Source: Nereocystis luetkeana (lineage: Eukaryota > Sar > Phaeophyceae > Laminariales > Laminariaceae). From it: a stretch of 64,000 nt of DNA. A model generated the notes under the pieces. It worked only from the letters and a program-made list of their open reading frames with translations, had not been told where the DNA came from and did no database searches. Positions 1,034-52,012 of this stretch are shown here, piece by piece. The DNA is taken from positions 8,466,388 to 8,530,387 of the forward strand of contig JARUPZ010000008.1 in assembly GCA_031213475.1 (NCBI GenBank). The letters are read 5' to 3'. How positions within the stretch are numbered: position 1 is the first letter of the stretch; every line of letters starts with the position of its first letter. The translations under genes were made by a program, and so were the position numbers.

Positions 1034-1971
1034 GCACGCCCTCCCGGCATACATACGTAGTACCAGGTACAGTAGCATACCTGGTATATAGTATTGTAAC
1101 TTCGTCAAATCAGGCAAGTTGTTTCCGTTTGTCGCTCGTCCTGTTGTCGAACCGTACATCCTGCAGCGAGCAGCTACTTTTTTACTCGTATAAATGTAAC
1201 AGCAGTATACCTGGAATGTACGAACGGGTGCCACGGTGCCACTGCTATTGTTGTACTGTACTTGTGTTGCATCAGGTACCCGTATACCAGTACTACATGG
1301 TGCGGCCTGCAGCAGGCCTTACGGTTTTAGATACGAGCTCTACGATCTTGCGCTGACTTGTTCCTTCTCACAGGTCAGACAGACTCTGTGGTACCTTGGT
1401 TCCTTCTTCCCAGGGTATTACTCATTACTCGTTATGTATTCGCCGTGCTGATAACCGCTTTCGCATTCGGAGGGCTGCCGCCTTTGCTCCAGCAGCAACA
1501 ACGGATCGACTAGCGTCAACACACGCGCAAAGTACGCATGTGTGGAGTGTGCGGCTGGCTTTCAAGGCCAGGATCTGGCGGGGATCCAGCCGGGGGGAGA
1601 GGGCAGGAGGATCTTGGATCTGCGAATACTCGTGGAAGCCCCGCATAAGAACGCCACCCGTCTCCAAGTGAAACCCTTTTGTTCAACTCCACGTGTGTTC
1701 TTCTGCGAGAACACTGACTGCTCTTTACGGCCGCAGGCTACCTGACGCGCACATAACATTTCCATAGTGGCTGGAGTTGCTTGCGGGGTGTTTTTCCCGA
1801 TAGGGGCGACATCGGGCAGGACGACGCAAAGAAAAGCTGTCGACGCGCAGCTAGTAAAACAAACAAGCACCTCTCGGGAGAGTTCAAGAGAGTCCTCAGC
1901 GGTAGGGAGGGACAGGCGGGTACGCGATCGTAGGCTTGCTCGCCTCGCTCGTTGCGTAGCAAAGGAGGAGC
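1034..1971 (+). other. 5' flank of the PP6 gene
   Basis: Holds two TACC(A/T)GGTA motifs (1061-1069 and 1078-1086) and the expected promoter and 5' UTR of the PP6 gene. Several open frames overlap on both strands at 1396-1870, but I recognise no protein and saw no clear core promoter element. Confidence 0.4.
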
Positions 1972-2049
1972 ATGCTGGAGAAATGGATACAGACGCTCCA
2001 GGCTGGAGACTGCCTGGCGGAGCGCGATCTCAAGAAGCTGTGTCTGATG
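1972..2049 (+). CDS. PPP6C: PP6 exon 1 (residues 1-26)
   Basis: Encodes the N-terminal helix: [12 protein letters not shown], then [10 protein letters not shown], which matches the (N/R)DLK(R/K)LC segment of PP6/PP4 N-termini. The donor is ATG|GTGAGAG. The in-frame ATG is 12 bases after a TAG stop. Confidence 0.9.
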
Positions 2050-5000
2050 GTGAGAGAGCACCGCAAGGCTTCCAGCGTTCTTTCGTGGCGTAATTTCTGT
2101 ATATACTCTTCCTTGTACCAGGTACCTGGTATAAAGCAGTACCTGGTACCAGGTATATGACAGCAGTAGTCTTTGCCCTTGACCTTTTGCGTGCTTGACC
2201 TGAAAGTTCTTTTTCTCCCTGTCGATTCGTTCTGTTTCTGTTTAGGACCGCAGTCCCGTCTTGGGGACACAACAGCTCAAATTTTAAGCTAGTTTGCCCC
2301 CCAAAACGGGACTGCGGTCCTAAAAGGGATGCTCGTACCAGGTACGTGTTGTATATCACTGGTGGTGGGTGTCGCCCCGTGCCCCGCGCCCCGTGCCCCG
2401 TGACGTAGGCGTTCTTGTGAGGCACGAACCTTGCCACGTATTATACAACACATGAATACTGCGCGATGGTTTTTGTAGAGATATGGCCGACAAGTGGATA
2501 GCATAGCGTCCAGAAGGGGTTGTGCTCTGCACGCGGGTCCCCGTGGCACTTCTTTTGATACTCGTATTATTTACGGGGGACCATAGTTAATAGGACCAAA
2601 TATTGTTAGTAAAAATGGTCAAATATATAGGTTTTTATGTACACCACAGGTCCTATTAACTATGGTCCCCCGTATTAATAGCATATTCGAGCTCGCTAAG
2701 CATCAATTGGCACACACCACCGGGTTTGCCAACGGGATCGGGCGCGAGGCGGGACGGTGTGTACAACAGCAGTGAGCAACCCCGGTTGAAGAGCGGCCCG
2801 TGACGATAATCACTCTTATCTGCGATGTGCGGCGGGACGTTCCGATTTGAACGCTAAACCCTTCTGGAACTGCACTCCCGTTTTGGGGGCAATGCAGTCA
2901 AATTCTAAGTAGTTTGTCCCCAAGACGGGACTGCGGTACTAAAAGGGCTAAAGCCCCGAATATTCTTTTGTGGTGAATTAACCCTTTTTGGACTGCAGTC
3001 CCGTTCTGGGGACAATTCATTCAAATTGTAAGTAGTTCGTCCCCAAGACGGGACTGCGGTACTAAAAGAGCTGAGTCCAAAATCATCTTTTGTGGCTGAT
3101 CCACCCTTTTGGGACTGCCCTCCCGTGTTTAGGGACAAAATACTTCGAACTTGAGTAAATTGTCCCCCAAACGGGACGTTTCGACCAGTGTATCCACTGG
3201 CCGTGTCTGGACTGGTATACCTTAACCCTCTTAGAGCCGTGGCCCCGTTTTGGGGACAAACCACTCTAATTCCAACTGCTCGTCCCCAGAACGAGACCGC
3301 GGTCCTAGACCGCGGTCCTAGAAGGGGCAAGAGCGTTGAGTTCGCACTACAGGGGTGCGGTCGTCTTTCAACGCTCGATTTTTCCAGAACGGGAATGTTG
3401 CCAACACTACCGAATAAAGGAGGCGTTTTCGGAAAGATCTAGCCTGACAATCTTCCGAAATATGCACACACTGCTCGACTGCAGCTGTAGCACCCTCTTC
3501 ACCCTTTTTCGAGAAAACGAGCAGCGCTGAAAAAACGATCGCACGCCCTGTGCGTTGCGTACTCAGCACTGTTTACGGTAAATTTTATAGCATGCCGATG
3601 ACTCCTTTTCTACACTGGATTATCTCTCTGTTGGTGCTTTGGAGTATACCGGGATATACCAGGTATACTCTTTGACCTTTCTTGCTCTTTACGAATGTGA
3701 TCGGGGCAGGTGAGACATTCGGAACCGGCCCACGGATTCGGAAAGAAATTAGATTTGAAACCGCGTCCGCGGTACATTCCTGGCATCAGGAACAGCAGTA
3801 CGCAGTGCCTAGCGCAGTTGTAATACGGTGTGTTTACCTGGTACACGATATATATGTACCCGATGAAGTACTTACAGAAAGGCAGGCTGAGATGACAAGG
3901 GGAAAACGAAATCCCGACTTTTTTGTACAGTAGGCGCTGCTCTGTTTTATTACAGTTTGGGAGGTGCTTCCAAATTTTTCGGGGGCCAAAGTAGTTGGAG
4001 ATACTCTGGGATAATTTCTGTGTGATGCAAGAACTAAGGCCACAATTGGCCTTCATGTACTATTACGGGGGACCATATTAAATAGAACCTAGGGTACACA
4101 CAAAAACCTACCAGGTATATACTTCCGTTTTTTTCTAACAATATTTGGTCCTACTAACTATGGTCCCCCGTGATAACAGCGCACTATGGCCAATAGAGCC
4201 CTCCACGCGCCAAAAAGGGCGAGCCTCCTAAATATAATGTTTCGTTTCTAGTTTACGGCGGCGACACATAACAGGGAGCTAAGCTCCGTTTCAACCTCCC
4301 TCGCGCTCCCGAGGTTGGCGTGTTCCGTCCGACGACAGGAATCTCTCCCAAAACGAACAGGAGGAACAGTCGAGTTTTCCACCACTTTTCCCCCTCCAAC
4401 GCACATGGTTGACGACAGCTACAAACAAATCAAACCATGGCGAGCTTCTCGCGAGAGCTGTGTACTGCTGTACAGAAGACGGGTCTCATATATATGTATA
4501 TATACAAGGGCTCCGCATGGGTGCCTGCCGGCACCCATGCTCCGGATAGGAAAATATACCTCAGTGCCTAAACTCGTGTGATTATGTTGAAGCAAGTTGA
4601 CATAAGTGCACCATTCGATCTTGTTGCGAACGGATCAGGGCAATGCCAAGTGGTGCAGGGAAAAGGCAATGCCGAGTGTCAGTTCTCAGTTCTTGTATCT
4701 GTCTCACTCGAATTAGAAACCAACTTTTATTGCCTTTTTTTGGGACGTTATTATTTATTTGCTGTTTTTTTCAGCCATCTACTCTGAAGCCCAAAATCAG
4801 AACCGTCTATAATTATGGTCCAGGAAATGATCGATAATTTGGAGCCCAGTTGCTGCTGGCGGGGGCAGAAATCAGGTCAGTTCTGAGAGGTCTCTCTTAT
4901 ACTTTGATGTATGTTGTTTACGATAGTAGTATTGCTGCCCTTTTTCTGCCCAGTTGCCAAGTACCCAATACCCACGCCGATATGACACCCCTATCTACGG

Positions 5001-50412: not shown

Positions 50413-50550
50413 GAGTTTCATATCAGCCAGGAAATATGAAATATTAGGCCCAAAAAGCGTGCACCCACCCCCCTCCCCCATACCCGTACGCCCTCCCCCC
50501 TATTTTTCGCATGCCCCACTCTTGGCAAATACATACATACACACACGTAG

Positions 50551-50589
50551 TCTCCTCCTCCTCCTCCTCCTCCTCCTCCTCCTCCTCCT
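50551..50589 (+). repeat. (CTC)n microsatellite
   Basis: About 12 CTC/TCC triplets in an uninterrupted run. Confidence 0.9.
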
Positions 50590-52012
50590 GGATCCTCGTA
50601 TATACTTACAGCAGTAGTAGTATACTCTCTTATACTGCTGTGCCGCGGACGCTCGACGAGGAACCTTTCGCCGTGTGCTCCGAACAGATCACCACCACCA
50701 CAGCACACACACCGCCTCCCCCCCGTTTTTTATCTTCTAGTTAGGGCCATTCTTATCGGAGAGCTTTTTTTTCCAATTTTTCGACATTTTTTTCGCGCAA
50801 ATTTTCAATCTTCCATATTTTCCTGTTTTTTTTTTCCAAATAAATATTGGAATGTTAACGAACTTGATTAGTCTATACGACGGGCTGTTATATTTTTACT
50901 ACATCATATTCACCACAACATGTCATCATCATGATGTCGTGTACCAGGTACCAGGTATATATATATATATCTATTCTACGCCAAGAACCTCAACATACAA
51001 CCAGAGCAAGAAGGCACAATGCGCCGAGAGACGACCACCCGAAAGCGGCGTCGTCTTCTATCTCCTATCCGCCCCCGGGGGGGTACAGCGGTCGAACAAT
51101 GACCGGTCCGGCTATTATTAATTAGCACCCTGGGTGATGTTCGGGACGATGGCCGTTCGTTGCGGAATATCCGTGATCGGACCGATCAGGAAAAAAAATG
51201 GATCCGATCGATGCCTATTTATAGCGGACAAACTCAGAGTGTCGGGAGTCACCGACGGGTCAACAGGAAGCACAAAACCTCTTTGTTTTGACTGGAGTAC
51301 GAGCCAGCGTTGCGGCCTGCGTTGACTCCAAGAAGAGGGGCACTGTGGTTCCGGGGGGTCGTTGATGTAGCAGACGGTGTCATGGCGATATGGCAGAAGC
51401 GATATGGCAGATCAGAAGGAGGAGGAGGAGAGGAACTGGATACGACATGTCGCAGATAATGCCAAAGAGTAGAAGCAGCAAAGAAAAGGGGAGGGGGGGA
51501 GCGGGGGCAGCCGTGCCGATCACCAATCACATTAATTGGGCCGCCGACAATAGATAGCCGGCAGGAGATGACAGATCATCTGGTGCTGTTCTAGTTCGAC
51601 TAAATAAGTGGAACCTGCGCGATTTTTGCTGCCACACATCGTTATTATACAGCAGCTAATAATACTAATAATATGGTACTTCTACATACTACATACACTA
51701 CACTACGTAGAATACTCTACACTTCACCGCACTACACTACACTACCTGGTACACTATACATTACACTTCCACACAACACTGCACTGCACTACTACTACTA
51801 CTGCTACATTCAGTACTACTATTGGTGCTACTGTTTATTGCTGCCGCTACTCCTACTCCTTCTTAAGTACTAATATTATACTGCTTCTACTCACCAAAAT
51901 CCTAATTTTTCTCCTATCTATCAATAACAACTTATTACTACTATTGATATTCCTCCTACTTCCTCTACTACAAAACTACTACCAGGTACCAGGTATACTA
52001 TTTAGTAGTAGT

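Follow-up and report, generated by a model that had tools for sequence, protein, structure and literature searches.

TACCWGGTA, a seven-base insertion at TA sites of the Nereocystis luetkeana genome and a probable transposon excision footprint

A stretch of 64,000 nt of the genome of the brown alga Nereocystis luetkeana (hereafter the window), lying on contig C8 of a 465-Mb assembly with 1,987 contigs, the ten largest of which measure 12–22 Mb, contains numerous copies of the palindrome-like nonamer TACCWGGTA (W is A or T; the two versions of the single unit are TACCAGGTA and TACCTGGTA). Comparison with related repeats demonstrated that this motif results from the insertion of seven bases, CCWGG and one TA, at plain TA sites, with one dominant product. 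The inserted sequence is probably the excision footprint of a TA-duplicating, Tc1/mariner-like cut-and-paste transposon.

Abundance and sharpness of the motif

Besides the window and the whole assembly, three nested samples were used: 264 kb (the window and 20 stretches of 10 kb, L012–L031, at fixed positions of contigs C1–C10), 315 kb (the former with L010, L011 and L032–L044) and 351 kb (the latter with L045–L053), the additions in the two larger samples being non-random. An earlier sequence-only reading of this DNA had counted 29 exact copies of the motif in the window against about 0.5 expected; all 29 were recovered where it had placed them (Table 1), and 100 dinucleotide shuffles gave a mean of 0.55 copies (maximum 2). 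The genome-wide count is likewise far from a random level, with 182,395 copies in 465 Mb compared with 1,744 for the backward-pattern control, an approximately 100-fold excess. The motif is the commonest 9-mer of the 264-kb sample (107 copies, words of period 1–4 being excluded) and was present in every one of the twenty 10-kb stretches (1–9 copies each). By arithmetic from the genome count its density is about 0.39/kb and the DNA added by it about 1.3 Mb. A viral_contigs pattern scan gave nine matches, which we estimate to be chance ones.

The motif is sharply bounded. One-mismatch forms, all variants pooled, number 25 in the window (14 expected) and 114 in the 264-kb sample (56 expected) beside the 107 perfect copies, the excess in the latter implying substitution at about 5.7% per site (divergence of about 0.057). 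C or G as the middle base is absent from the window and occurs 16 times in the 264 kb (4.8 expected). A motif so sharp, palindrome-like and very abundant might also be a regulatory or protein-binding palindrome conserved by selection; that explanation is extremely improbable, since the motif decays, as the one-mismatch forms indicate, since it is found as an insertion inside dispersed repeats (below), and since the exact duplication of TA would be left unexplained.

Insertion at plain TA sites

For the detection of empty sites the motif was collapsed to TA and the resulting sequence compared with its paralogues. Any paralogous match was obtained for 24 of 102 motif runs; eight of these were counted as clean, the others, apart from two in MITE A mentioned below, being of low complexity or badly aligned, and a ninth site came from a gap survey. 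Plain-TA paralogues are thus available at nine sites in five repeat families: five sites in family A of miniature inverted-repeat transposable elements (MITE A; window 4109, 9899 and 25216, L025 8898 and, from the gap survey, L033 2269), three in local repeats (L012 5266, L017 7419 and L018 3808) and one in a 420-bp repeat (L025 2187). Two further motifs in MITE A (L015 6350 and L021 7520) were not counted, a small extra gap adjoining them in the empty-site alignment. At the three window sites, where the sequence-only reading had seen MITE A interrupted, taking out the seven bases gives a junction that reads as in the sister copies; 4109 and 9899 represent neighbouring TAs of the same MITE A centre, while 25216 lies elsewhere in the element. 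Genome-wide, the MITE A centre word AAAAACCTA followed, after 0–2 bases, by CCWGGTA was found 3,194 times (1,612 + 1,582; control 0), although some of these may descend from MITEs that were copied with the motif already in them and, by our estimate, a few dozen may be chance neighbours.

The polarity of the change was deduced from the age of the MITE A copies. None of the 15 copies at least 89% identical to the reference copy (itself included) carries the motif, compared with 8 of the 24 more diverged ones (Fisher p 0.015); the comparison covers 39 of 42 hits, three fragments shorter than 60 bp being left out, and two older copies in which the motif coincides with the end of the alignment or lies immediately beyond it (L021 7223 and window 9174) were scored as negative. 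The presence of the motif only in the older copies shows the insertions to be derived, with plain TA ancestral in the compared repeats and not produced by deletion. It is clear from the nine empty sites and the MITE-centre copies that TA became TA-CCWGG-TA many times, as the sequence-only reading had proposed. A survey of TA-X-TA insertions yielded 46 events, comprising CCWGG (5), a one-base C (5), CGAC (5), CWG (2), TTAA (2), CGAG (2) and others; a single deletion in L028 apparently accounts for all five CGAC rows.

Target preference and adjoining units

The flanks of 99 CCWGG sites, pooled from both sides on the assumption of a symmetrical target, show A or G before TA, C or T at position −2, A at −3, A at −6 and a strong preference for A or T at −7. 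TA is found at −7/−6 in 63 of 214 flanks as against a background of 7.3%, about ten of the 63 looking like decayed neighbouring units. The Tc1 target consensus is CAYATATRTG (Y, pyrimidine; R, purine); the CCWGG sites have A-Y-R-TA-Y-R-T in common with it, whereas the extra TA 7 bp away is found only in the CCWGG sites. The alternating Y/R target around TA is a feature common to the CCWGG sites and Tc1/mariner elements, and alternating pyrimidine-purine bases are often enriched at transposase insertion sites according to a passage of PMC7827188.

Adjacent units that have their TA in common number 15,917 genome-wide compared with 2 in the control, which bears out the impression, gained from the window alone, that new units insert at the TA of old ones. 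Chance was rejected as the cause of this excess, since random use of TA would give about 2,500 doublets by our arithmetic. Part of the excess is explained by the preference for TA at −7; TACCAGG-TA itself supplies such a TA and would favour doublets. The W letters of the two units are equal in 9,539 of the 15,917 doublets (60%; AA 4,800, TT 4,739) and not in 50%, and perhaps about a fifth of the doublets are tandem duplications and not independent insertions.

Such possible tandem duplications, together with the possibly inherited part of the MITE-centre copies, would suit a spread of the motif along with a few repeats that were copied while carrying it, or replication slippage of a 7-bp satellite. 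As the general origin this is very improbable, and it can only account for a minority of copies: the motif runs of the 264-kb sample comprise 91 single and 8 double ones, the flanks vary from site to site (among the 100 of 107 listed), and the positions vary within MITE A.

A second scar and its source as internal control

A second short sequence, TATTAATA with the core TTAA, occurs 72 times in the 264-kb sample (1.9 expected) and likewise represents an insertion at TA, of which L020, L026 and L018 provide clean examples. Its flanks before TA read T-A-C at frequencies of 0.55, 0.59 and 0.50 (73 sites). MITE A, which has the ends TTACGG and a duplicated TA at 40 of 46 ends, is flanked by T-A-C at 0.62, 0.65 and 0.70 (40 ends), i.e. 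its target is TAC-TA. Since the TAC-TA flanks are common to both and TTA/TAA ends at a duplicated TA can rejoin as TTAA, TATTAATA is very probably what the excision of MITE A leaves behind. Examples of TATTAATA in the window are found at 6064–6077, 10192–10199, 21764–21771 and 48600–48607.

The likely autonomous partner of MITE A is a 4.3-kb TA element with a DDE_3 transposase (Pfam) and the ends TTACGGAGG, located in L045–L049 on contigs C19, C7 and C10. Four copies are 99.4–99.9% identical over 2.9 kb in five of the six pairs, the sixth pair (L046 and L047) showing 97.6% in an alignment that crosses the flanks; ten places tie for the top match score, and the left end could be located in the single copy from which that region was fetched. 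The element is young and, as expected for young DNA, the four autonomous loci (3.1 kb each) contain no CCWGG motif. Its size is close to that of TcMar-2_Ec32 of Ectocarpus, which is 4.4 kb according to a passage of PMC12477816. As the presence of this source together with many TATTAATA scars indicates, short scars are indeed left in abundance by TA transposons of this genome. The CCWGG insertions have in common with this system that they are TA-targeted and TA-duplicating and have a short palindromic core, and scars outnumber elements in the sample; the system differs from them in its core TTAA, its target TAC-TA and the presence of near-identical source copies. Also enriched in the 264-kb sample are TACGAGTA/TACTCGTA (43 versus 9.5 expected), perhaps a third scar class.

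Excision footprints as the probable origin

The probable origin of TA-CCWGG-TA as an excision footprint can be pictured as follows. An element with the ends TA-CCWGG...CCWGG-TA would insert at TA, duplicating it, and would be excised by staggered cutting a few bases inward of each terminus. The 3′ overhangs, for which a length of five bases fits best, would pair through CC/GG with a mismatch at the middle base, and repair of that mismatch to A or T would seal the empty site as TA-CC(A/T)GG-TA. The excised element would reinsert elsewhere, and new insertions using also the TA of old scars would give rise to doublets. With permanent scars and mobile elements, a few low-copy elements would leave very many scars over time; by this reasoning a handful of rarely excising elements can produce 10^5 scars over very many generations, and the source element may now be rare or extinct.

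The core variants counted in the 315-kb sample were CCWGG (120; 2.8 expected), CCAG (27; 9.8 expected) and CCGG (16; 4.7 expected) and, more rarely, CCAGGG (7; 0.8 expected), CCATGG (4; 0.3 expected) and CCTGGG (1). The minor variants fit end joining around one preferred alignment. The sequence-only reading had envisaged the joining of two 3-base CCA overhangs, which is doubtful, since such ends, if filled in to blunt ones, would be joined as CCATGG, and its four copies, two of them adjoining in the window, compare with 120 of CCWGG. Fill-in of 3-base ends was accordingly rejected as the main route, and the counts argue for a 5-base overhang with one central mismatch; this, or a strict one-base register, fits better than 3-base overhangs.

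The core of the Sleeping Beauty footprint is CAG/CTG. The duplication of TA, a core that is short and almost palindromic, with an A/T mismatch at its centre, and perhaps the occurrence of minor variants are features common to the Sleeping Beauty or other Tc1/mariner footprints and the CCWGG scar. Several observations weigh against the footprint explanation, including the outcome of the element searches described below. The main core of 5 bp is outside the range of 2–4 bp stated for Tc1/mariner footprints in a passage of PMC7913693, a system from which the scar differs also in its approximately 182,000 copies and in its source not having been found. The product is, in our judgement, very uniform for end joining, and the 60:40 bias towards equal W letters in doublets is not predicted by random mismatch repair. 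Moreover, single-base indels in decaying copies of the main scar could also have produced the minor variants, some of which are not independent, two CCATGG being adjacent and two CCGG lying in the duplicated loci L040 and L041. The idea of a Tc1/mariner footprint, put forward in the sequence-only reading, stands as the better one, given the internal control of TATTAATA and MITE A, while the source element that it calls for was not found. The scar behaves as a footprint of the Tc1/mariner type would, but is not assigned to that group here, since its core length falls outside the stated range and its source was not found.

The 5-bp core would be less of a difficulty if the footprint stemmed from a TA-duplicating element outside Tc1/mariner or if the scar were left by ciliate-like programmed elimination, which would also explain the missing elements. 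Both are quite improbable, since the insertions look old and heritable, with a divergence of about 0.057 and a location in older MITE copies. The ciliate internal eliminated sequences are likewise excised at bounding TAs. They differ in that their precise excision leaves a single TA. Their end motif is also another one, namely TAYNR in Paramecium according to a passage of PMC9942856.

Search for the source element

A scan for matched inverted ends in the 264-kb sample revealed no element with TA-CCWGG ends; two hits starting with CCTGG were discarded, that at L025 7873–9525 being a chance pair on inspection of the DNA and that at L028 4954–8804 a pair of scar doublets. Clustering of the inward sequence after TACCW in the 315-kb sample also yielded no CCWGG-ended element, the 60 best pairs representing other repeats, duplicated loci and the MITE A interior, and no CCWGG ends were seen around any of 22 transposase loci (L032–L048 and L050–L054). 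A targeted search for elements of 66–126 bp with guessed CCWGGG ends gave 58 matches compared with 447 for the control, with no recurring family among the 12 places for which letters were displayed. At the MITE A centre, CCWGG followed by a non-T and then a non-A base occurs 248 times (127 + 121; control 10), beside the 3,194 canonical copies, the pattern missing any element in which CCWGG is followed by T, or by A in the second place; the two sites displayed with letters both read CCAGGG. The sequence-only reading, too, had seen no element with such ends in the window. From zero elements in 264 kb, an upper limit of about 5,300 in the whole genome follows at roughly 95% confidence, valid for elements shorter than 4 kb with well-matched ends.

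TA-specific DDE transposases are represented in the genome by DDE_3 and DDE_1 genes, none of them linked to CCWGG, and TA-flanked elements were found with each of the two. The ten-copy DDE_3 family was rejected as the CCWGG source, its ends being TTACGG. Those pogo-like DDE_1 elements for which ends were found (L042 and L044) have CAG ends and not CCWGG; several other DDE_1 loci, which exhibited no inverted ends within the fetched 3.3–3.6 kb, stay possible sources. The pogo-like elements, with the ends TA-CAGTACCGGCC, share the duplication of TA with the CCWGG scar and would leave TA-CWG-TA, of which two insertions were seen, but no comparable target logo was found at 71 filtered TACWGTA sites. 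One of them (L044 101–2092) sits exactly at the TA of a TACCAGGTA. An intact frame of 599 amino acids with a DDE_3 domain is present in L050 (1678–3477, contig C17); no inverted ends could be seen within 6 kb. Of 48 matches listed it is the sole one of full length, and the long relative closest to it is the degraded L054 (49% over 212 residues). The L050 frame represents a candidate transposase not linked to the scar, possibly a domesticated gene or a last copy. A profile search with PF13358 gave no match at the default threshold and 30 weak ones at E up to 10, and one with PF01359 gave none, a result without weight since its controls likewise went unmatched.

Some 182,000 copies without any source element found, with one dominant product and with tandem units having a common TA, might also point to a distinct micro-insertion, i.e. 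a TA-specific transposase/integrase-like enzyme, or a break-and-repair process, adding the fixed 7-bp unit directly, no longer element ever having been inserted. This is unlikely, since the target-site logo and the parallel case of TATTAATA with its known source fit ordinary transposition and the minor variants look like imprecise end joining; to our knowledge, moreover, no enzyme adds a defined 5-base core without a template. There is an equally small chance that a TA-specific enzyme of this lineage inserts CCWGG and TA directly, the scar-like unit itself being the spreading entity.

Significance

If the insertions are footprints, the genome has densely recorded, in a sharply defined form, the earlier jumps of an element that was not found. 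The excisions of an element recognized from its scars alone could then be counted and their history dated, and Tc1/mariner chemistry would be extended to a 5-base core. If they are not footprints, short defined DNA is added by a new kind of process. In both cases an insertion of 7 bp, which shifts the reading frame of coding sequence, is at such frequency a notable mutational force. Among the matches listed in literature searches of open-licence PubMed Central papers, no description of such an insertion was seen, and for the literal motif string the papers among the matches listed were unrelated by title.

Features of the window

Table 1. Copies of the motif, doublets, interrupted MITE A copies and a rare scar variant in the window
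Feature	Position	Strand	Evidence
TACCAGGTA	1061..1069	no strand	exact match
TACCTGGTA	1078..1086	no strand	exact match
Doublet TACCAGGTACCTGGTA, units with common TA	2116..2131	no strand	exact match
Doublet TACCTGGTACCAGGTA	2140..2155	no strand	exact match
TACCAGGTA	2336..2344	no strand	exact match
TACCAGGTA	3657..3665	no strand	exact match
TACCTGGTA	3835..3843	no strand	exact match
MITE A copy broken by motif	4063..4171	no strand	78.9% to reference copy; sister empty sites
TACCAGGTA in MITE A, plain TA in sisters	4109..4117	no strand	exact match, sister comparison
TACCTGGTA	5363..5371	no strand	exact match
TACCAGGTA	5703..5711	no strand	exact match
TACCAGGTA	8326..8334	no strand	exact match
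TACCAGGTA just beyond MITE A end	9279..9287	no strand	exact match, MITE A alignment
MITE A copy broken by motif	9851..9962	no strand	sister comparison, MITE A alignment
TACCAGGTA in MITE A, plain TA in sisters	9899..9907	no strand	exact match, sister comparison
TACCTGGTA within TA run	13078..13086	no strand	exact match
TACCAGGTA	18550..18558	no strand	exact match
TACCTGGTA	21845..21853	no strand	exact match
Doublet TACCAGGTACCAGGTA	22853..22868	no strand	exact match
MITE A copy broken by motif	25133..25241	no strand	sister comparison, MITE A alignment
TACCAGGTA at other MITE A point, plain TA in sisters	25216..25224	no strand	exact match, sister comparison
TACCTGGTA	33982..33990	no strand	exact match
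Two TACCATGGTA, rare 6-bp scar variant	47060-47069, 47074-47083	no strand	2 of 4 in 315 kb, 0.3 expected
TACCAGGTA	47117..47125	no strand	exact match
TACCAGGTA	49276..49284	no strand	exact match
Doublet TACCAGGTACCAGGTA	50942..50957	no strand	exact match
TACCTGGTA	51743..51751	no strand	exact match
Doublet TACCAGGTACCAGGTA	51980..51995	no strand	exact match

The window further contains two metallophosphatase exons (10897–11565; Pfam Metallophos) separated by an intron of about 390 bases, the first exon matching just below and the second above the curated cut-off; we read the encoded protein as PP2A-like. Inverted arms about 1.7 kb apart at 47473–49408 match at 98% over 98 nt and at 100% over an adjacent 38 nt, and degenerate palindromic arrays built on GGAAGCTTCCATGG occupy 52932–53544 and 59309–59904. 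A dispersed repeat of about 400 bp is located at 56082–56487, with 8,063 first-look candidates genome-wide, 40 of which were scored.

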